Source of the DNA: Anthocerotibacter panamensis C109
GTDB lineage: Bacteria > Cyanobacteriota > Cyanobacteriia > Gloeobacterales > Anthocerotibacteraceae
DNA: 64,000 nucleotides
Direction: 5' to 3'
Assembly: GCF_018389385.1 (NCBI RefSeq)
Contig: NZ_CP062698.1
Coordinates: forward strand, 3,938,667 to 4,002,666
Shown: one piece after another, positions 23,039-50,629 of the stretch
Position numbering within the stretch: position 1 is the first letter of the stretch
Layout: every line of letters starts with the position of its first letter
Notes under the pieces: model-generated
Seen by the model: only the letters and a program-made list of their open reading frames with translations
What the model was told of the DNA's origin: nothing
Database searches by the model: none
Position numbers and translations under genes: made by a program

Positions 23039-23111
<73 letters not shown>

Positions 23112-23123
23112 CTCCTTATACAA

Positions 23124-23159
23124 GCCACCAAACCCTCGCCAGCCGGGGGTTTGGCTTTT
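23124..23159 (+). terminator. terminator after tRNA-Phe
   Basis: A strong hairpin: CCAAACCC (23128-23135) pairs with GGGTTTGG (23147-23154) and is followed by CTTTT. It lies 16 bases after the tRNA and would stop tRNA transcription before the integrase gene. It is on the element side of the attachment site. Confidence 0.7.
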
Positions 23160-23219
23160 GGGACTAGAGTGGGATAGTCGGAGATAGTACAAGATGATAA
23201 GGGATAGATAGGGTTTCGA

Positions 23220-24428
23220 GTGGGCAAAAATAGTCAAAAGCTAGGCAAGCTACTGACCCCTGAAGCATTTGCCACGCTCCTAGCCCAGGCGAACCATGAG
23301 CTAGATGCGGCGCGGTGCCGGGTCGTCATTGAGCAGGTCGGCCAGCGGCTCCATCTACGGGGTACGCTCCCCCCGAAGCCAAGGAGTGGAAAGACTGCCC
23401 CCACTCAGCAGCGCATCAGTCTGGGGGTCGCTGCCACGGTGGAAGGGCTCAAGAGGGCGACCGCCGAGGCCCGGAAAGTTTCAGCGCTTTTGGACCTGAA
23501 AGAATTCTCATGGGAGCCATACCTGCGTAAGAAAGAGGAGGCCATCCCCGAGTCCCCCAGTGCCCGTACGGTGGGGCAGCTACTCCAGGAGTTTGAGAGT
23601 GACTATTTCACGCACCGTGCACGGACTACCAGCAAAGAGCACACATTCCTGGTTGAATACCGTCGCCCGTTGAGCAAGCTCCCCCAGGAACGAACCCTAG
23701 AGCGCGAGTCATGCCTTGCCTTGATCCGCCAACACGACCCCGATAGTCGGACCCGCCTGCGTATGGCGACGGCGCTGGGCCACTTGGCCCGCTTCGCTGG
23801 GGATGAGGCCCTCGCACAGGAACTGCTGGGGCTACGCGGCGGCTGGAGGTCGGCAGAGCATGAGATTAAAGACCTCCCCAGCGACAAAACTATCCAGGAG
23901 TGCTGGGCCAGTATCCCTGCCACGAGTGCCGCCTGGAAATGGGCCTATGGAATGCTTGCCACCTATGGCTTGCGGCCTCACGAAATCTGGCACCTAGACA
24001 TCACTGAGCTAGAGGCTGGGGGGCAGGTGGTGAAAGTGGGCAATCACACCAAAACCGGACGGCGAGAAGTGTGGCCGTGCCACCCAGAATGGATAGAGAT
24101 GTTTGACTTGCGGGCGGTGCAGGTGCCACCCTCTAGCAAGGCAGGAAGCGGTAACGCAGATATAGGCCACCGGGTAGCTGTCCAGTTTCAACGGTACAAA
24201 ATCCCGCACCATCCCTATGCCCTACGCCATGCCTATGCTGTGCGGTTGATTGGCTACGGCATCGCAGACACCGTAGCTGCTCGGTGGATGGGCCATACGG
24301 CGCAGGTCCATCAAAGCATCTATCACGATTTCTTAGGACGGGCAAACCACGAGGAAATTTTTAACCGTGCGCTAGCAAGACCAGACCGACCCATACCCCC
24401 CGGCCTATCTGGGCTAGAGGGGGAATGA
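23220..24428 (+). CDS. int: tyrosine recombinase / integrase
   Basis: A 402-residue site-specific recombinase. The catalytic domain (about 210-402) shows R252 (YGLRPHEIWHL), R336 (PYALRHAYAV), H359 (WMGHTA) and the nucleophile Y368 (SIYHDF). The first position of the HxxR box reads Tyr instead of His (Y333), with H331 close by. The N-terminal half has an arm-binding and core-binding layout like that of integrases from cyanobacterial genomes and plasmids. The GTG start at 23220 is the only reasonable one. It directs integration and excision of the element at tRNA-Phe. Two small HTH proteins at 59,439 and 60,191 are possible excisionases. Confidence 0.88.
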   Translation: MGKNSQKLGKLLTPEAFATLLAQANHELDAARCRVVIEQVGQRLHLRGTLPPKPRSGKTAPTQQRISLGVAATVEGLKRATAEARKVSALLDLKEFSWEPYLRKKEEAIPESPSARTVGQLLQEFESDYFTHRARTTSKEHTFLVEYRRPLSKLPQERTLERESCLALIRQHDPDSRTRLRMATALGHLARFAGDEALAQELLGLRGGWRSAEHEIKDLPSDKTIQECWASIPATSAAWKWAYGMLATYGLRPHEIWHLDITELEAGGQVVKVGNHTKTGRREVWPCHPEWIEMFDLRAVQVPPSSKAGSGNADIGHRVAVQFQRYKIPHHPYALRHAYAVRLIGYGIADTVAARWMGHTAQVHQSIYHDFLGRANHEEIFNRALARPDRPIPPGLSGLEGE

Positions 24429-42323: not shown

Positions 42324-42904
42324 GGCTGGTCCTCAACACGTTCCGTCGAGCCAGGACCGATATTCACAAATGTTTGTGGCACCACAATGGGCGATGTGAA
42401 CCCCTGCTGGGTGACAATTCCCCGCGCTGGTACCGGTGGAGGAGAAGATGGGAATCTGCGATAGGCTTCTATAGCTGGAGGCAACACCGGTAAATTAGCC
42501 TGAATGGGTTGCGGCACAGGCTGGGGAGGGGCAACCAGCGTAAGGATGGGCTGCACCAGAGGATTGGGGGTGTACTGGAGAAAGAACACCAGCACTTGCC
42601 CAGAGCGCATTTGTACGGTAAGTGTCCCCAGGGTACGTCCCAGTTGGGGCAGGACTTTTAGCTCTTTAGGGCTGGCCGAGGTCTGGAGCAAAATAACCCG
42701 GCCTCCCTTATTGAAGCGGACTAAGAACAGGACGGGATTCGAGATCCAAGCATCGGCAACCGTGTCCTGCTCGAACTTGATAATGCGGTCAAAATCATGG
42801 GTCACGGTCAGATGTAAACCCTCCACCGCCCTTGCCACCGGCAGCCGCAGTTGGGCCTGGACGGGCAGGGCCACAAGGAGGAACAAAAGGGCCAGGTACT
42901 TCAT
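42320..42904 (-). CDS. exported VirB9/TrbG-like protein (tentative)
   Basis: A 194-residue protein with a signal peptide (MKYLALLFLLVALPVQAQ). The first 100 mature residues (LHLTVTHDFDRIIKFEQDT, then GRVILLQTSAS, then TLTVQMRSGQVLVFFLQYTP) form a beta-rich domain like the N-terminal part of VirB9/TrbG proteins; a proline-rich tail follows. It lies next to virB10, where virB9 is expected, and overlaps both neighbours. The family match is weak, so the name rests partly on position. Confidence 0.55.
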   Translation of the reverse strand: MKYLALLFLLVALPVQAQLRLPVARAVEGLHLTVTHDFDRIIKFEQDTVADAWISNPVLFLVRFNKGGRVILLQTSASPKELKVLPQLGRTLGTLTVQMRSGQVLVFFLQYTPNPLVQPILTLVAPPQPVPQPIQANLPVLPPAIEAYRRFPSSPPPVPARGIVTQQGFTSPIVVPQTFVNIGPGSTERVEDQP

Positions 42905-44304
42905 CAGATTCCCTCCGGCAAATACAACGCAAATACGGTACCGGGCCTGATCGTGTAGATAGCTCCTCGTGAATCCTGCCGTTGAAAATCCGCGTCCGAG
43001 CGCTGGGTTTGCCTTTGGAATACGCTGGAGACGCCTTGGGCCACTGCTCGCACACCAGCTACGCTCAAGTCTCCAGATTGCGTGGTGGTTTGAATGGGAA
43101 CCCCAGTCAAGGAGTTGTTGGAGGTTACAACAGACTGACCAAAGTCACGGGAGAGTTGCGCCGCTCCGGTGCCCAAGGCGGTGGACAAGTCCGCCCCCAG
43201 ATAATTAGGGCTCTCTATGCTCGCAACAAGCCCTTCCGCCAGCTCGCCAGAGGAACCAATGACCCATGCTGATGCACCACGAAGAGGATAGATGCGGGTA
43301 CCCACCGTGAGGGATTGGAACTGTATATAAACACGACCTAGCGCCTCATCCAGGCGGCTGAGGGTGCCTTGCACCAAGGCCCCATCAGGGATGACCAGTC
43401 TTCCATCAAGCTGCACCTCCCCTTTCACGGTGGCGAGGAACAATGTTTTATCCTGTCGCCTACCTACCGCCTGGAGCAGATTTTTTGAGGTCAGTTGCAG
43501 CCAGTTGCCAGGAGGAAGGAGCGTCCATCCTACAGTGAGTGAAGCGGATAGCTGAGGCGTTTGAGACGCGACGGCAATAGCTGAGGGGTTCGCCTCCTGT
43601 GTAGAGGACAACGGTGTAACGGGCAACGCATCCGCCCTTAGCCCTCTTGAACCAAGCACAGGGAAATTAGCTATAACCGGTACATTCTCTTGGGGTCTGG
43701 GCACAGCCGTATTGGTCTCAATCTTGGGCAGTTGTGGATCAGGTGGCAAGGGGACGGCCCCGACGACCTCGGCTCCCACATACGGGGTGCGATTATTGGC
43801 CCTCAGTTGGACGACCGTAAGTGCTTCTTGCTTCGCCCGTTCGGCACTATTGAGGGATGTTGCAGGAGGGGGGTGGCGTCCTGGAGGCTGCGGCGTAGCC
43901 TGAGGAGAGATGGCGGGTGTGAATGGTGAAGCGGTGGCAGGCACCGGTGCCGCTGGCACAGGCGGTGGAGCCGTAGGCACTGAGGGCGCAGCGGGCATAG
44001 AAGTAGCAGGCACCGGAGGCGTAGCAGCGGGCGTAGGGACAGGAGCAGTCGTGGAAGACCGGAGTGAAAACAGAGCAAATCCTGCAACAACGACCAAAAA
44101 AATCAGCAGAGCAATCCCGAAAAAACTAACTCTAGTTGTATCCAGATAGTACTGGTCATCCAAGGCATTTTTGCGATAAAAGACAGGCTTGAGGTATTTT
44201 TCATGAAACCGCTGATACGTCCGATTGCGGCTTGTGGCCCCATCTAGGCGCTTAGCGGGAGCTGCCGCTTCAGGTAGCTTTTCTGATTCAGTGGTTTGTG
44301 TCAT
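42904..44304 (-). CDS. virB10: VirB10/TrbI-like core-complex protein
   Basis: A 466-residue protein that spans inner and outer membranes in type IV secretion. A 65-residue cytosolic tail precedes one transmembrane helix (VSFFGIALLIFLVVVAGFAL), a long Pro/Ala-rich linker (about 85-150) and a C-terminal beta-barrel domain. VirB10 features in that domain include LVIPDGALVQGTLSRLDEA, QFQSLTVGTRIYPLRG and the end IRPGTVFALYLPEGI. The antenna region is within the barrel domain. It overlaps the VirB9-like gene by one base (TGATG). Confidence 0.85.
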   Translation of the reverse strand: MTQTTESEKLPEAAAPAKRLDGATSRNRTYQRFHEKYLKPVFYRKNALDDQYYLDTTRVSFFGIALLIFLVVVAGFALFSLRSSTTAPVPTPAATPPVPATSMPAAPSVPTAPPPVPAAPVPATASPFTPAISPQATPQPPGRHPPPATSLNSAERAKQEALTVVQLRANNRTPYVGAEVVGAVPLPPDPQLPKIETNTAVPRPQENVPVIANFPVLGSRGLRADALPVTPLSSTQEANPSAIAVASQTPQLSASLTVGWTLLPPGNWLQLTSKNLLQAVGRRQDKTLFLATVKGEVQLDGRLVIPDGALVQGTLSRLDEALGRVYIQFQSLTVGTRIYPLRGASAWVIGSSGELAEGLVASIESPNYLGADLSTALGTGAAQLSRDFGQSVVTSNNSLTGVPIQTTTQSGDLSVAGVRAVAQGVSSVFQRQTQRSDADFQRQDSRGAIYTIRPGTVFALYLPEGI

Positions 44305-44307
44305 GGA

Positions 44308-44733
44308 TCACCTACGAAACAGGGTTAAGGGAAAAGCTAATCCCAGTAGCTCACCCCGACGGATAGGGCCAAAGTAACGCGAATCAATACTTGCGGCCTC
44401 GTTATCCCCTTGCAACCAAAATTCATCCGGCCCTAGGATGAGTGTCTTGCCTTGCCAGACTACTTGGTCCCCTGAGATGTGCGTAACTCGTTTGCAAAGC
44501 GTTGTCGTACGATGAGCCAACTTTGGATGGCGTGCGATCAGGCCAGCAGGTAGCCGGGTGATGATAATATCTCCTCGCCGGGGAGCGTCTGAACGAACGA
44601 AAAGAACTACCCCACTGTCAGGTATGGTCGGAGCCATCGATACGTCACTGATTACGTCCAGCGAGACAAAGTGCAAAGCCCCATACAACAAGAGCAATAG
44701 GCAGAGCAACCAAGCTCCACGAACCCGTGTCAT
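44308..44733 (-). CDS. TraF/signal peptidase I-like protease
   Basis: A 141-residue S26 peptidase. One N-terminal helix (WLLCLLLLLYGALHF) is followed by the catalytic serine in SDVSMAPTI, the lysine in TTTLCKRVTHISGD, and the end motif LQGDNEAASIDSRYFGPI. This is the set used by signal peptidases and by plasmid TraF, which processes conjugative pilin. It lies between virB10 and virB6 and probably matures the pilin-like proteins made at 49,882-50,551. Confidence 0.88.
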   Translation of the reverse strand: MTRVRGAWLLCLLLLLYGALHFVSLDVISDVSMAPTIPDSGVVLFVRSDAPRRGDIIITRLPAGLIARHPKLAHRTTTLCKRVTHISGDQVVWQGKTLILGPDEFWLQGDNEAASIDSRYFGPIRRGELLGLAFPLTLFRR

Positions 44734-45908
44734 TACTCCCTCCCGGTTCTTGGTACGGGGGCGAAGGTATCACCTACGCGCCGGACGGCTGCGGTCACGG
44801 GCGCTGTACTGCGGTCCACTGCTGAGACCAATCCCCGCTCCAAGGGTCTTCTCACGCGCTGGTCAAAAGTGTTGACCAGATTAGCCCGAGCACGTTCACC
44901 CTGTTGCGCTAAGGCAGTTTGCGAGAGCACCCCGCGTACACCGGAGGAGAGACCTGAAGCGGCACTCGATGCAGAGCGGGCTAGGGGCTGGCCAATGCGT
45001 ACTGCTAGCCCTGCGGCAAGGGTGACCCCGCCAATCGCAGCCTCAGCCAACCCCGAAGAGGCTAGGCTTTGAGCAGTTCCCTTAGCTGCGATAGCAAAAA
45101 ATTTGGCAAAGCCCGGTACGCGTTGCTGCATAATCACGCCAAAAATAACCACAAATAGCAGCCAAGCAATCTGCGCTAAAAGACTTGTGATACCTACATT
45201 AGTTGAAGTAATCTGAGTCAAACCAACCTGCAATAGAAGGAGCGTAAACCACAATAAAACTTTACCGAGAAAGGGTTTAAATACCTGCTCAAGGCCAAGG
45301 TTGATAATCGTCCAGAACCATCCACTGGTTTGTGGGAGGAGCAAACCCATAACCCCAGCACGACAGAGAAATGGAAAGATGATAAATAAATAGAACATCG
45401 CTTCTCCGGTATTGATGACGTAAAAGACCCCCATAACAACAACACCTAGCGTCAGCACAAACCAGGACAACCCATAGATGATAGAGAGGGGATCACTCAG
45501 GGATTGACTTATACGAGTTGCAGTGTCGTTGGCGAGGTTCAAAACATCAATCCCACCAGCGACACTGCTTGCAAAAAGTAGGTTTGAAAAATCAAGGAGC
45601 AGAAAAAATAGCGAAAATAAAAACTCAACAAAAACGCGAACATTAATGACAGCTATAACTATAATCAAATTTCGCGTGAAAGAAAATAAGACCTCTTTGA
45701 TTATCCCTGGATTGCCAGATATAAATAGATAGTACGAGCGGAAGAGGACGGAATATAAAAAGAAAAAAGAGGTAAACACACCAATCAAGATAAGCCAAGT
45801 CCCGTACCATGGGGAATTGAAGAATGCCCCACTCGCCTGAATCAAAATATTATAAAGGTTTTGCTCAAGACCCTGGAACGGATTGGCTGCTTGTGCTAAG
45901 AAGAGCAT
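44733..45908 (-). CDS. virB6: VirB6/TrbL-like polytopic channel protein
   Basis: A 391-residue protein with about six to seven membrane helices in the first 300 residues (for example WLILIGVFTSFFFLYSVLF, LSWFVLTLGVVVMGVFYVI, LLAQIAWLLFVVIFGVIM) and an Ala/Ser/Arg-rich cytosolic tail of about 110 residues. This size, topology and place beside virB4 and virB10 fit VirB6/TrbL. Its start overlaps the stop of nothing upstream; 16 bases separate it from the virB4/virB5-like frame. Function: part of the inner-membrane channel. Confidence 0.75.
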   Translation of the reverse strand: MLFLAQAANPFQGLEQNLYNILIQASGAFFNSPWYGTWLILIGVFTSFFFLYSVLFRSYYLFISGNPGIIKEVLFSFTRNLIIVIAVINVRVFVEFLFSLFFLLLDFSNLLFASSVAGGIDVLNLANDTATRISQSLSDPLSIIYGLSWFVLTLGVVVMGVFYVINTGEAMFYLFIIFPFLCRAGVMGLLLPQTSGWFWTIINLGLEQVFKPFLGKVLLWFTLLLLQVGLTQITSTNVGITSLLAQIAWLLFVVIFGVIMQQRVPGFAKFFAIAAKGTAQSLASSGLAEAAIGGVTLAAGLAVRIGQPLARSASSAASGLSSGVRGVLSQTALAQQGERARANLVNTFDQRVRRPLERGLVSAVDRSTAPVTAAVRRVGDTFAPVPRTGRE

Positions 45909-45924: not shown

Positions 45925-46734
45925 TTAATATTTTGTAGGACGCAATGCTGTGGGCACTTGAGTTCTGGATGTCAATCCACTCAGGAGATTATTAAAATTC
46001 GCCTGTAGCCCGAAGACAGAACGACCTTGTTGGGCAGCCTGATCCACCTCCCACTGCTTTTGGGCTGATTGTGCTTCCTGGAGTTGACCAAGCGCATTAA
46101 TTGTTTGGGCATTTAGATTGGCAACTGTTTGCAGGAAAGCGGTATTCCCTTGTCCCACGGAGGTGGAACAGTTGAGCCCTTGCTTATCGGCCACAGCCTT
46201 TAAGGCAAGGGCCTGAGCATAAAGTTGGTAGGCATTATTCTGAGCCGCGATCTGGTCATACACATAGGGCGCGGCGGCGGCGGATTGGTAGGCTGCTGCT
46301 GCCTGATTGAAGGCGGTCTGGGCTTGGTCATAGGCAGGTTGGGCCTGCGTGTTACAAAAGTTTTTACTTTCGTTATCGACCTGTGCCCGTAGCTGGGGGA
46401 TGTCCTGATTGAGGGTTGCCTGCGCCCCGGTCTGGTTGGCTTGCCCTTGGAGGATGCTTTTTTGCAAGAGGGATTGCTGTCGTTGAAAGGTGTACTCTCC
46501 TCCTGGAGCTTGAGGGGTTACGCCCGCTGAATTCACATAGTCGTGATTCTGCGGATCATTGACCTGCAAGTCACAGTTGACGGTGAACGTTTGACCCGTA
46601 TAAGGGTTTGTCGCCACACATAAACTGAACTGTGCTTGGGCGTGGACCGAGAAGGTCAATATCCAAAACACAAATACAGCAAGAATCCCTGTGGAGGGAG
46701 ATCTTCCCAATCTTGCTTGTCTTAGCTGTTCCAT
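45925..46734 (-). CDS. VirB5-like exported coiled-coil protein nested in the virB4 frame
   Basis: An in-frame ATG at 46734 is preceded by GGAGG seven bases upstream and begins a signal peptide: charged start (MEQLRQARLGRSPSTG), hydrophobic core (ILAVFVFWILTFSV) and cleavage site (HAQA). The mature part is an Ala/Gln-rich coiled coil of about 230 residues with a few cysteines (FSLCVATNP, KNFCNTQ, GLNCSTS), the shape of VirB5/TrbJ-type pilus proteins. No stop codon separates it from virB4, so the same codons also form the C-terminus of a 1180-residue fusion. I think the exported form comes from this internal start. Confidence 0.7.
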   Translation of the reverse strand: MEQLRQARLGRSPSTGILAVFVFWILTFSVHAQAQFSLCVATNPYTGQTFTVNCDLQVNDPQNHDYVNSAGVTPQAPGGEYTFQRQQSLLQKSILQGQANQTGAQATLNQDIPQLRAQVDNESKNFCNTQAQPAYDQAQTAFNQAAAAYQSAAAAPYVYDQIAAQNNAYQLYAQALALKAVADKQGLNCSTSVGQGNTAFLQTVANLNAQTINALGQLQEAQSAQKQWEVDQAAQQGRSVFGLQANFNNLLSGLTSRTQVPTALRPTKY

Positions 46735-49467
46735 GTGTTGTCCTCCGTTGTCTAACGCTCTACGCACCCGCTCTTCTTCTGCTAGCTGGTTTACTAGGTC
46801 CAAAACCTGCAACCATCCCGCTTCACGCGACAGTTTCTCTGTGTCGGTATGCGATACCGGAAGACCATTCGGCCAAACTCGACCAAAAATCCATGCCGCG
46901 ATCTGACATTGCTCGGGGGTCGCTTCGGTGATGGAATCCGCTCCCAACAGCTTCAAAATGTTCTGCCGCAGGATGCATTCAGGCTTGTGCCCTGTCAACA
47001 GGGCAATCCAACTCCCGGCTTGGGTAGCAGGGACAGGATTTACCAGCAGCATGGACTCCAAACTCCCGTTGTAATTTCTCCGCCGATAGAAAAATTGTCC
47101 GTATACCCCCGCCACGCGCTTGAGTTGCGGCAATAGTTCTGCTTCGGTCTGCGTAAGGCTGAGCGCTTCAATAACATCCTCTGTACCCTCTCCAGAACCC
47201 AATAGAATCCACTGGTTTGCAGCTTTACGCACTGTGAGACCAGCAGGAGAATTTAGATCATCCACAAATTGTGTAATAAACCAAATGTTTACACCAAAGT
47301 GACGACGACGACGGGTAATCTCTGCTAAAAATCGCCCTTCATCGAGAGCAAAAAACCCCCAACCCTCATCAATAAAGAGATTGATAGTGTAATTGTTGCC
47401 TTGTTCTATCGACAGTTGGGTTAGCACCTCTGCGAAGGAAAGCATTCTGGCTCTTAGCAAGGTGGAGATTTTGGCTTTCATATAGGGATTTGTAAGCTCA
47501 GACAGGCTCCAGGATACCGTTGGATGGGCAAGTAAATCGCGTATTCGCAAACCATCATTTCGCCCAAAGTAGGCATAAAACTGTCCATTCGGGCTTTTAA
47601 ATTCGTAAAGTTTAGTTATAAATTCTCCAGAGCAAAAGGACTCCAATGACCGAGCCCAATTTATCAGATTATCCTTGGTAGGCTGATGGCTCTCTTCCTT
47701 AGCTAAACTCAGAAGAACGTGTACAAAAGTATCATAGTTAGTGGATGTTCCAGCGATTTGATAAGCCTTGAGTAAAGCTCTAGTCAAAAGTGCCTCTTGT
47801 TCTCCAGATAAATCTACTCCAGGCTTACGGTGAATATCAAACCACAGGGAGGAGGTGATCTCTATCCGCTCAGCGACAGTTGGGGTTGAGCCTGCAATGT
47901 CAAAGGTGGGTAAACAGATACTTCCATCTTCGGTAAATCGTATGTTGAGCCCCTGGTTATGGCGAGTTTGAAAATCATAGGAGGTTAGCTCAGTGTTGGT
48001 GTCTACAGTCCAAACATATTGAAAGGGCAGTAGCATCAACTGCTGGATCTGGACCTTACAGGCTACACCCTTACCCGTCCCAGGCGGACCGAACACAAGC
48101 ATACAAGTCCCGGAGGTTGGTCCTACAAGGGCTTTGCGAACCAGCCCTCCCCGCTCGCTCCAGTAGGTGATGTAGGGAATCCCGTCTGATACCGGGTCGC
48201 TGTTTGGCATCCCATAGTGCGGGATGAACCAGCAGAGCAGATCTGAGCGGACAATATGCCCACGGTTGCGATAATCGACCATTGTTGGTGGGACTCCAGG
48301 TGAGGCTGCAACCATTGCCTGTTTAACGCGAGGACGGCTGCTCTCGGCAAAAAAGGTGGTACCGGGATAATTAGAAGCGATGCTTACCACCAATCGCATG
48401 GCTTCTTCCAAACCTTCTAAGCTGCTAGCAGCTACGCGGATGGTCATCGTATACCGCACCACATTTGAGGTGCGCGCTAAATCTCTGCGCAATTCCTGTA
48501 CGTTTTGAACGGTCTCATCTAAGCCTAGGTTCGCTACGCGCTGCCCAAAACTGCCTTGCAAGTCTCGTGCGACAAGGTCACGCTTCTCCAGTTCTTTTGC
48601 GATGGTGGTCTTGCCCGTCATAAACCATGTCTGGCTAATGTAATAATCCACACCCTCTAAAGCAAATAAATCTTCAAATCCGTGGCTTGCACGCTCAGGG
48701 AGGCCAACCAGAGCAAGGTAGCCAACGTATTTGGTGCCAACTACGGCATACCTTGGGCTAAAGGCAACAGAGGTGTTGGCTAGATCCCGACGGAGTGATT
48801 CCACCGCAGCCTCGGGGTAGCGCTGCAACGTATCGGTGCTGAGCTGCCCGTGGACTAACCCTCGCTTGGGCTTGGGAGCCCCCACATAATAGGAGGCTTC
48901 AGGATTCCAGTATTCCCACACAGGACGGATTACTTCCTGGGGAGCAGTCAGTAATTCAACCCCGTACCCTGCCTCAGTAAAGGCAGCACAGAAACCCGCA
49001 GCACGCTGCTGGATAAGCTTTTCAGACTTATCCAAATCTTGTCGTGAAATAACTTTTTTCTCTAGCGTGTAGCTAAGAAACAGATAGGTGCAAAGAACTG
49101 GAATTAATCCTTGCTCCATCTGGCGCAGGGCAAAATCCTGGTAAATACGGGCTGTATCCTCAAGATGAGGACTACCTGAAGCGCTATAGGTCTCCCCTAA
49201 AAGATGAGAATTAGTGATATTCCTGCGATACCGAACTATCTGTAGTTGCTCATTTAGACCAACACTATCCTCATTGGAGAAAAAGAAGTTTAACGGTTGG
49301 ATATGGCGGTTATAAAGCACTTCGACATCCAGTAGTCGAGTGTCTGGCTCCTGAAGGCGAATCACCGCAATCAACCAATTATTCCCCTTTAGGTCTCGAC
49401 TGACCATGAAGCCACTGGGGCGCACATCGATTACTGGAATTTGATGGGTGAGGTTTACCGTTTCCAT
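45925..49467 (-). CDS. virB4: VirB4 ATPase, continuous frame with VirB5-like C-terminus
   Basis: The open frame encodes 1180 residues. Residues 1-911 are a VirB4-type secretion ATPase: N-terminal domain to about 440, then P-loop region FGPPGTGKG (459-467), Walker B INLFIDEGWGFF (695-706) and a HFGVNIWFITQFVDDL segment. The P-loop ends in Gly467, where Ser or Thr is expected, so nucleotide use may be altered. After residue 911 the frame runs on into an exported-type protein with its own start signals, a topology that makes little sense for one polypeptide. The stop codon of virB4 seems to be lost or was never present. Confidence 0.85.
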   Translation of the reverse strand: METVNLTHQIPVIDVRPSGFMVSRDLKGNNWLIAVIRLQEPDTRLLDVEVLYNRHIQPLNFFFSNEDSVGLNEQLQIVRYRRNITNSHLLGETYSASGSPHLEDTARIYQDFALRQMEQGLIPVLCTYLFLSYTLEKKVISRQDLDKSEKLIQQRAAGFCAAFTEAGYGVELLTAPQEVIRPVWEYWNPEASYYVGAPKPKRGLVHGQLSTDTLQRYPEAAVESLRRDLANTSVAFSPRYAVVGTKYVGYLALVGLPERASHGFEDLFALEGVDYYISQTWFMTGKTTIAKELEKRDLVARDLQGSFGQRVANLGLDETVQNVQELRRDLARTSNVVRYTMTIRVAASSLEGLEEAMRLVVSIASNYPGTTFFAESSRPRVKQAMVAASPGVPPTMVDYRNRGHIVRSDLLCWFIPHYGMPNSDPVSDGIPYITYWSERGGLVRKALVGPTSGTCMLVFGPPGTGKGVACKVQIQQLMLLPFQYVWTVDTNTELTSYDFQTRHNQGLNIRFTEDGSICLPTFDIAGSTPTVAERIEITSSLWFDIHRKPGVDLSGEQEALLTRALLKAYQIAGTSTNYDTFVHVLLSLAKEESHQPTKDNLINWARSLESFCSGEFITKLYEFKSPNGQFYAYFGRNDGLRIRDLLAHPTVSWSLSELTNPYMKAKISTLLRARMLSFAEVLTQLSIEQGNNYTINLFIDEGWGFFALDEGRFLAEITRRRRHFGVNIWFITQFVDDLNSPAGLTVRKAANQWILLGSGEGTEDVIEALSLTQTEAELLPQLKRVAGVYGQFFYRRRNYNGSLESMLLVNPVPATQAGSWIALLTGHKPECILRQNILKLLGADSITEATPEQCQIAAWIFGRVWPNGLPVSHTDTEKLSREAGWLQVLDLVNQLAEEERVRRALDNGGQHMEQLRQARLGRSPSTGILAVFVFWILTFSVHAQAQFSLCVATNPYTGQTFTVNCDLQVNDPQNHDYVNSAGVTPQAPGGEYTFQRQQSLLQKSILQGQANQTGAQATLNQDIPQLRAQVDNESKNFCNTQAQPAYDQAQTAFNQAAAAYQSAAAAPYVYDQIAAQNNAYQLYAQALALKAVADKQGLNCSTSVGQGNTAFLQTVANLNAQTINALGQLQEAQSAQKQWEVDQAAQQGRSVFGLQANFNNLLSGLTSRTQVPTALRPTKY

Positions 49468-49477
49468 ATCACTCCTT

Positions 49478-49885
49478 TCAGTCCAGCCAGTATCGGTCTA
49501 TTTCGGTGTCGGGCCTTCCCCCTTCCCAGAAGTGAGGGTCGGAGCCTGCAAGAAGCTCAAAGAAATCATTGAGTTCCTGATAAAAGTCAAGCAGGTATCC
49601 CCGAGGCTTGCCCTCGCGGATTTTTAGATAAGATAGAGATATAACTATCCATAAAAAGAAGGTGGGAACCCAGGGAGTCAGATTAAATTGAGGGGGCTCT
49701 CCCCCTGCTTTACCTCCCAAAAGGGTGACCGCATCAAAATTGATAATGAGCGGGGGGAAAATGAGCCATACCAAAAACCCAATGGGTAGGAATAGGGATA
49801 GCACAAAAATAAGATCCTGGTACTCTATCCCAAAGACCCGCGCACTAGGGGTGAGGTCGCGGACTATCGTGGTATCTGGTATCAC
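49478..49885 (-). CDS. virB3: VirB3/TrbD-like inner-membrane protein
   Basis: A 135-residue protein with two N-terminal helices (DLIFVLSLFLPIGFLVWLIF, then a second span near WVPTFFLWIVISLSYLKI) and an acidic tail. Position directly before virB4 and this two-helix form fit VirB3/TrbD. It is larger than most VirB3 proteins. It overlaps the upstream pilin-like gene by four bases (ATGA). Confidence 0.65.
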   Translation of the reverse strand: MIPDTTIVRDLTPSARVFGIEYQDLIFVLSLFLPIGFLVWLIFPPLIINFDAVTLLGGKAGGEPPQFNLTPWVPTFFLWIVISLSYLKIREGKPRGYLLDFYQELNDFFELLAGSDPHFWEGGRPDTEIDRYWLD

Positions 49886-50208
49886 GGCTCCTCCAACAGT
49901 CTGAGATGCTGGAGCGAGAGCGCTGTGGATGCTGTTGGAGCCACGCCTGCCGAGGCAAGCACTGCCTGGACAATGGACTTTCCACCATCGCCGACGATGA
50001 AACTGACCGTCAAGCTGAGCGCCACGGTAACGATCAGCCCTGCAAGGAAAGAATTGATGCTCTTTAGCAACCGCCCTTCTTTACTAATCACTGACTGTAG
50101 AACGTGGATGCAGACAGCAATCAGCAGACCAAAGAGCCCTACAAAAAATAGAAACACTGCCAGATTGGACCCGTCCGCCGCCACCGGGCTAGTGGTTGCT
50201 AGCAGCAC
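49882..50208 (-). CDS. VirB2-like pilin, copy 2
   Basis: A 108-residue protein from the GTG at 50208, with GGAGG nine bases upstream. It has two hydrophobic segments (LAVFLFFVGLFGLLIAVCI and FLAGLIVTVALSLTVSFIV) joined by a short loop (SKEGRLLKSIN), the hairpin topology of VirB2 pilins. The longer open frame to 50304 only shadows the upstream pilin gene. It resembles copy 1 along its length (start LLATTSPVAADGSNLAVFL against ILATTNLQGLSSDASNLGVI). Confidence 0.65.
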   Translation of the reverse strand: MLLATTSPVAADGSNLAVFLFFVGLFGLLIAVCIHVLQSVISKEGRLLKSINSFLAGLIVTVALSLTVSFIVGDGGKSIVQAVLASAGVAPTASTALSLQHLRLLEEP

Positions 50209-50551
50209 TTTCCTCTTCCTCCCAGCGATACAAGGTAGCAGCGGTAAACCCAACGGAGTTGTTGGGGGCAATCGCTGCAAATGATCCAAACGTACTGGAC
50301 ACAATGTTTTGAGCTACTACACCCTGACCCTGTACGTAGGTGGCAAGGGCACTGATAGATATCGTCGCGATTACGCCAACGATTAAGCTCTCCACAAGCG
50401 TCAAAATCCGGTTCTGATTCCCCAGGAACCGAACGCCAATAGCAAAAATAAAAGCCACTAAAATACCGAGCAGTACTGCAAAGAATAATATGACACCCAG
50501 ATTGGAGGCGTCACTCGATAGTCCTTGCAGGTTTGTTGTAGCGAGAATCAC
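50189..50551 (-). CDS. VirB2-like pilin, copy 1
   Basis: A 120-residue protein from GTG 50551 (GGAG eight bases before), with two hydrophobic segments (LGVILFFAVLLGILVAFIF and ESLIVGVIATISISALATY) around a short basic loop. It is a tandem paralogue of the next gene, which it overlaps by 20 bases. An ATG at 50596 is also in frame and would add 15 residues. The pair is probably the major and a minor pilin; the TraF-like peptidase is the likely processing enzyme. Confidence 0.65.
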   Translation of the reverse strand: MILATTNLQGLSSDASNLGVILFFAVLLGILVAFIFAIGVRFLGNQNRILTLVESLIVGVIATISISALATYVQGQGVVAQNIVSSTFGSFAAIAPNNSVGFTAATLYRWEEEESAASNH

Positions 50552-50629
50552 AGCTTCATCTCCATAGGGATCTCCTTTTGCAGGGGATAGGGACACTCTA
50601 TAAATCAGTACTGGTTTTACTGGTCCGTT

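Follow-up and report, generated by a model that had tools for sequence, protein, structure and literature searches.

In Anthocerotibacter panamensis C109, the coding frame of a VirB4-type ATPase of a T4SS runs without a stop into an exported protein in the position of VirB5, which raises the questions of how the two came to share a frame and whether that frame yields one product or two. The original prediction was of two products, a VirB5-like protein from an internal start and a VirB4 with a C-terminal extension, on the argument that fusing a cytosolic ATPase to an exported protein would be topologically senseless. We analysed a window of 64,000 nucleotides around the frame (positions 3938667-4002666 of the complete 4,187,797-bp genome; coordinates below are those of the window) together with the homologous loci of related genomes. 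The system was found in four of the nine genomes of the order: the present one (G000), its nearest relative from another genus of the same family (G001, 48% identity), and one genome each from another family (G008) and from a third (G002). Among 386 other cyanobacterial genomes, for which the best two candidates per genome were scored, no further relatives appeared beyond distant TraC-type matches, and collections of genome contigs, viral contigs and plasmids likewise returned only distant TraC-type matches, mostly from Pseudomonas.

The frame belongs to an integrative element, with a tRNA-Phe at 23039-23112 and an integrase at 23220. This ICE spans ~84.8 kb and sits in the tRNA-Phe (window 23039-24428), whose 3' end recurs as a perfect repeat of 25 bp at G000:C1:4046548-4046572. 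The distal 25-bp copy comes without a tRNA gene, and the right end of the element lies outside the window. The element encodes a TrwC-type relaxase and a TrwB-type coupling protein (TrwB_AAD_bind), which together with a weak TrbI-like protein, and with the remaining components assigned by position, make up a conjugation gene set. The operon is arranged in the following order:

50189-50596 and 49882-50304, minus strand: two tandem small membrane proteins in the VirB2 position, of similar pattern and paired in G001 too
49478-49885, minus strand: small membrane protein in the VirB3 position, preceding virB4 as it does in G001 and G002; no Pfam match
45925-49467, minus strand: the merged frame of 1180 codons, with VirB4-type ATPase, signal peptide and VirB5-position exported protein; stop-free in translation, with the order and open junction of G001
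44733-45908, minus strand: polytopic membrane protein in the VirB6 position, with 50% identity to its G001 counterpart and with homologues after virB5 in G002 and G008 too
44308-44733, minus strand: S26 signal peptidase (PF10502, E = 2.5e-15), two genes downstream of the merged frame in the same operon
42904-44304, minus strand: VirB10/TrbI-like protein (PF03743, E = 0.011, a weak match)

The tandem pair before the VirB3-position gene is a candidate for duplicated VirB2-type pilins, without a family match.

The merged frame is open over its whole length, as had been claimed, on a strand that the original prediction left unstated: 1180 sense codons run on the minus strand from an ATG at 49467 to a TAA at 45925-45927, and the plus strand of the same interval has many stops and no open reading. 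The internal ATG at codon 912, with GGAGG seven bases upstream, is also where it had been placed, in frame (GGAGG-ACAACAC-ATG, within ttagacaacGGAGGacaacacATGgaacagctaag on the minus strand). The parts of the frame are as follows:

46735-49467, minus strand: VirB4 part, residues 1-911, recognised by TIGR02746 and by identity to the VirB4s of G001, G002 and G008
46742-46746, minus strand: internal Shine-Dalgarno sequence GGAGG, the most open among 12 operon starts
46735-46741, minus strand: seven-base spacer ACAACAC between GGAGG and ATG
46732-46734, minus strand: internal ATG, codon 912, the inferred virB5 start, in frame and 47 codons past the start of a WPxG motif
46722-46724, minus strand: TAA in the +1 frame, spaced (ATG, 7 nt, TAA) as in G002, which may be left over from the former stop of virB4
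46633-46734, minus strand: signal peptide of 34 residues, predicted to be cut after HAQA, with a hydropathy peak and an A/Q site common to G001, G002 and G008
45925-46632, minus strand: mature protein of 235 residues, and its stop, in the VirB5 position; its model is largely helical, and it is related in sequence to the G008 protein and the 3' part of the G001 gene

By its sequence the ATPase is a divergent VirB4 of the T4SS type, with a Walker A motif (GPPGTGK, residues 460-466) and a Walker B-type motif (LFIDEGW, residues 697-703). Matches to TIGR02746 (TraC-F-type, E = 5e-13) and AAA_10 (5.6e-6) fall on this part, both below the curated cutoffs and the first of them far below, and it is 36-50% identical to the separate or fused VirB4s of G001, G002 and G008.

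The relatives show what the locus looks like unmerged. In G008, virB4 ends in SFSRKEGRR and a stop, and virB5 starts in an ATGA overlap of 4 nt; in G002, virB4 ends in IQICAE and a stop, with an overlap of 13 nt with the start of virB5 in another frame. In both, virB4 is read in the +1 frame with respect to the virB5 ATG. From WPxG to the end of VirB4 there are 49 residues in G002 and 52 in G008. In the window, M912 comes 47 residues after the start of WPxG, and the +1-frame TAA, 7 nt after the ATG, occupies the exact place of the virB4 stop of G002. The alignment proposed with the original prediction thus places a stop near this point in G002 and G008, and hence indicates that two genes have merged. 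Close relatives with a stop between the two parts had been named as a finding that would count against the prediction if combined with a sequencing error; such stops are present in the more distant G002 and G008, but the junction of the nearest relative is open.

In G001, the VirB4 frame is free of stops through the signal peptide and ~90 residues of the mature protein, up to DGFTQQASDTVTQGTPW and a stop. Its other two frames contain no stop from the conserved end of VirB4 to the hydrophobic core either, so no single indel at the G001 junction would give a normally placed stop. Two local features of this locus were also observed. At CAGGGGAC (L010:4715-4740), after a G4 run, the virB5 homologue moves into the -1 frame, and a TAG follows soon after; a one-base error of sequencing or assembly, a genuine break or a slippery site could each account for the shift. 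At L010:4340-4470, a 16-nt direct repeat (ccccgtgcaggcccaa) flanks the core of the signal peptide, so that PVQAQ is encoded twice. The simplest history for G000, judging from these alignments, would be a net length change of +1 (mod 3) in the poorly conserved tail of virB4. We estimate the chance of finding no stop in a short unconstrained stretch at (61/64)^10 to (61/64)^25, or ~0.6 to 0.3; because short stretches lack stops this often by chance, their absence is weak evidence of selection. No slippery sequence that would allow programmed frameshifting to the remnant TAA was seen on inspection by eye.

The internal start looks functional on its sequence features. The computed energy of its duplex with the anti-Shine-Dalgarno sequence (-9.5 kcal/mol) is close to those of VirB3 (-9.3), VirB4 (-9.1) and VirB6 (-9.3), and the mean unpaired probability over its ribosome site is 0.65, compared with 0.42 +/- 0.08 at 58 other internal ATGs and 0.24-0.51 at the 11 other operon starts. 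The frame therefore combines an in-frame internal start, read from the sequence, with a ribosome-binding site that is accessible by computed openness. In 21 genes of the window, two of the 116 in-frame internal ATGs have GGAGG or AGGAG at a distance of 5-9 nt. Of these two, codon 912 alone falls at a signal peptide and at the point where the relatives have their gene boundary, which is why we read it as the old virB5 start. A chance ATG at this codon was considered and rejected, given the rarity of such Shine-Dalgarno sequences among internal ATGs and the openness of the ribosome site. In G001 the corresponding start is not visibly conserved: the candidate, an ATG-GTA with a duplex energy of -6.3 kcal/mol, is weak and lies ~11 codons upstream of the aligned M912.

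From codon 912 the frame encodes MEQLRQARLGRSPSTGILAVFVFWILTFSVHAQA, followed by QFSLC after the predicted cut, a regular Sec signal peptide. Both the sequence and a hydropathy scan agree here with the signal peptide and HAQA site originally described: across the 1180 residues, the only 19-residue Kyte-Doolittle window above 1.3 is at 925-943, with a peak of 1.77. The A/Q site is kept in 4/4 loci, and the hydrophobic core is clear in G000, G001 and G002 and weaker in G008. The notion that the fusion is topologically senseless does not survive this analysis. A lone hydrophobic segment that follows positive charges and precedes AxA/Q would make an ordinary N-in/C-out protein, as internal cleavable signal segments preceded by Arg residues orient proteins in this way; topological impossibility was discarded on the strength of this single segment. 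Of the two-product proposal there remain, then, the merged genes and a functional-looking internal start, without the topological argument that had led to it. The S26 signal peptidase of the operon could be the enzyme that cuts the fusion, to judge from its gene. The gene is also present in G001 and G008, and since G008 encodes one just as G001 does, the enzyme is not specific to merged loci. Signal peptides within long proteins are sometimes left uncut, which counts against processing.

The exported part can be called VirB5 by position only. It has a signal peptide and its gene lies between virB4 and virB6 in 4/4 loci, and the mature protein is 38-46% identical to the G008 protein and to the 3' part of the G001 gene. 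A single-sequence AlphaFold model is mostly helical, with three long core helices and a core pLDDT of 70-80. Sequence searches of Pfam, NCBIfam, PHROGs and the PDB with this protein or its relatives gave no match, nor did profile searches of the PDB, and Foldseek with the low-confidence single-sequence model found no VirB5 (best E = 0.17); the VirB5/TraC fold is a bundle of three helices. The assignment thus draws on synteny, signal peptide and helix content rather than on homology to a known family: the proposed VirB5-like exported protein holds in its position and its signal peptide, and lacks a match to a VirB5 family or fold.

We favour the explanation, with a probability of roughly 0.6, that overlapping virB4 and virB5-position genes merged, that both starts were kept, and that the long product is probably processed. 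The length change in the virB4 tail would have put virB4 out of the frame of its stop. Ribosomes beginning at the first start would then produce a VirB4 that continues into the signal peptide and the VirB5-like protein, and those beginning at codon 912 an ordinary exported preprotein. The long product would most likely cross the membrane once, with its VirB4 portion kept cytosolic and its VirB5 portion exported; a cut by signal peptidase at AQA/Q would then release the mature protein, and VirB4 would retain a membrane tail at its C-terminus. We infer that the internal start is used, that the long product inserts into the membrane and is cleaved, and that the arrangement brings any benefit; the fusion of these neighbouring T4SS genes, with the inner start kept, is, from the alignments, very probably real.

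An artefact would make the locus ordinary: if a base had been gained or lost near the junction by a sequencing or assembly error, the true virB4 stop would be the +1-frame TAA, as in G002, and that TAA stands exactly at the G002 distance, for which the chance is ~3/64. However, the similarity to G002 in frame 0 apparently reaches VRRALDN (versus ARKSMEA), beyond the nearest stops of the other frames, so that an error would be confined to ~25 bases without runs of identical bases longer than two. The junction of an independent genome from another genus, G001, is also open, and this, with the lack of homopolymers at the junction, makes a sequencing error in G000 quite improbable. The merger could also be real and neutral in effect, with the VirB5-like protein coming from the internal start only and the VirB4 tail a tolerated by-product that is mostly degraded, VirB4 working with whatever remains of it. 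One indel suffices for this, the stretch free of constraint is short, and G000 retains the +1-frame TAA, as it might after a recent event; yet every VirB4 molecule would begin with a signal peptide attached, followed by an exported domain of 235 residues, and an open junction in a deeply diverged second genus suggests that the fusion is compatible with long-term function. We regard this harmless loss of a stop as unlikely.

Conversely, the internal start might be a relic, and the VirB5-like protein might be obtained only by cutting the long product, at 1:1 with VirB4. The topology permits cutting, the operon includes a gene for a signal peptidase, and G001 lacks a good internal start. In G000, by contrast, the internal Shine-Dalgarno sequence equals those of VirB3, VirB4 and VirB6 in strength and is the least structured, although it should have decayed if unused, and such an obligate fusion seems improbable to us. 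A further, tentative reading, possible on the sequence but somewhat doubtful, is that of a conserved VirB4-VirB5 polyprotein, in which VirB4 would carry a C-terminal signal-anchor tail, signal peptidase would release a pilus-tip-type protein beside the motor, and the internal start would top up the supply.

The arrangement that we favour, a merger with both starts kept, has parallels in known systems. The separate virB4 and virB5 genes of G002 and G008 have the same order, homologous proteins and the same boundary, but with a stop, another frame and an overlap of 13 or 4 nt. Fusions of VirB3 to VirB4, such as CagE of Helicobacter pylori and its counterparts in Campylobacter, likewise merge neighbouring T4SS genes and give VirB4 added membrane anchorage; for CagE, a processed VirB4 band was proposed by the authors (PMC4643968). 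In these fusions VirB3 is at the N-terminus, whereas the merged frame adds, at the C-terminus, a VirB5-position protein that is exported and has a signal peptide of its own. The large-subunit gene of type I CRISPR systems also makes Cas11 (Cas11b) from an internal in-frame start (PMC11899642), an established case of a second functional product and the same arrangement of a C-terminal product within a longer one. Unlike Cas11, the short product here begins with a signal peptide, so that the two forms would be on different sides of the membrane. A literature search for a VirB4-VirB5 fusion found no report.

The locus is a clear case of overlapping operon genes that merged with the inner start kept, and other members of the order still have the two genes unmerged. 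If cells do make the long product and cut it, the pilus motor would be tied to the membrane and at least part of the supply of the VirB5-like protein would be fixed to that of VirB4. The polyprotein reading, if true, would amount to a new coupling of the T4SS motor to the supply of the pilus tip.
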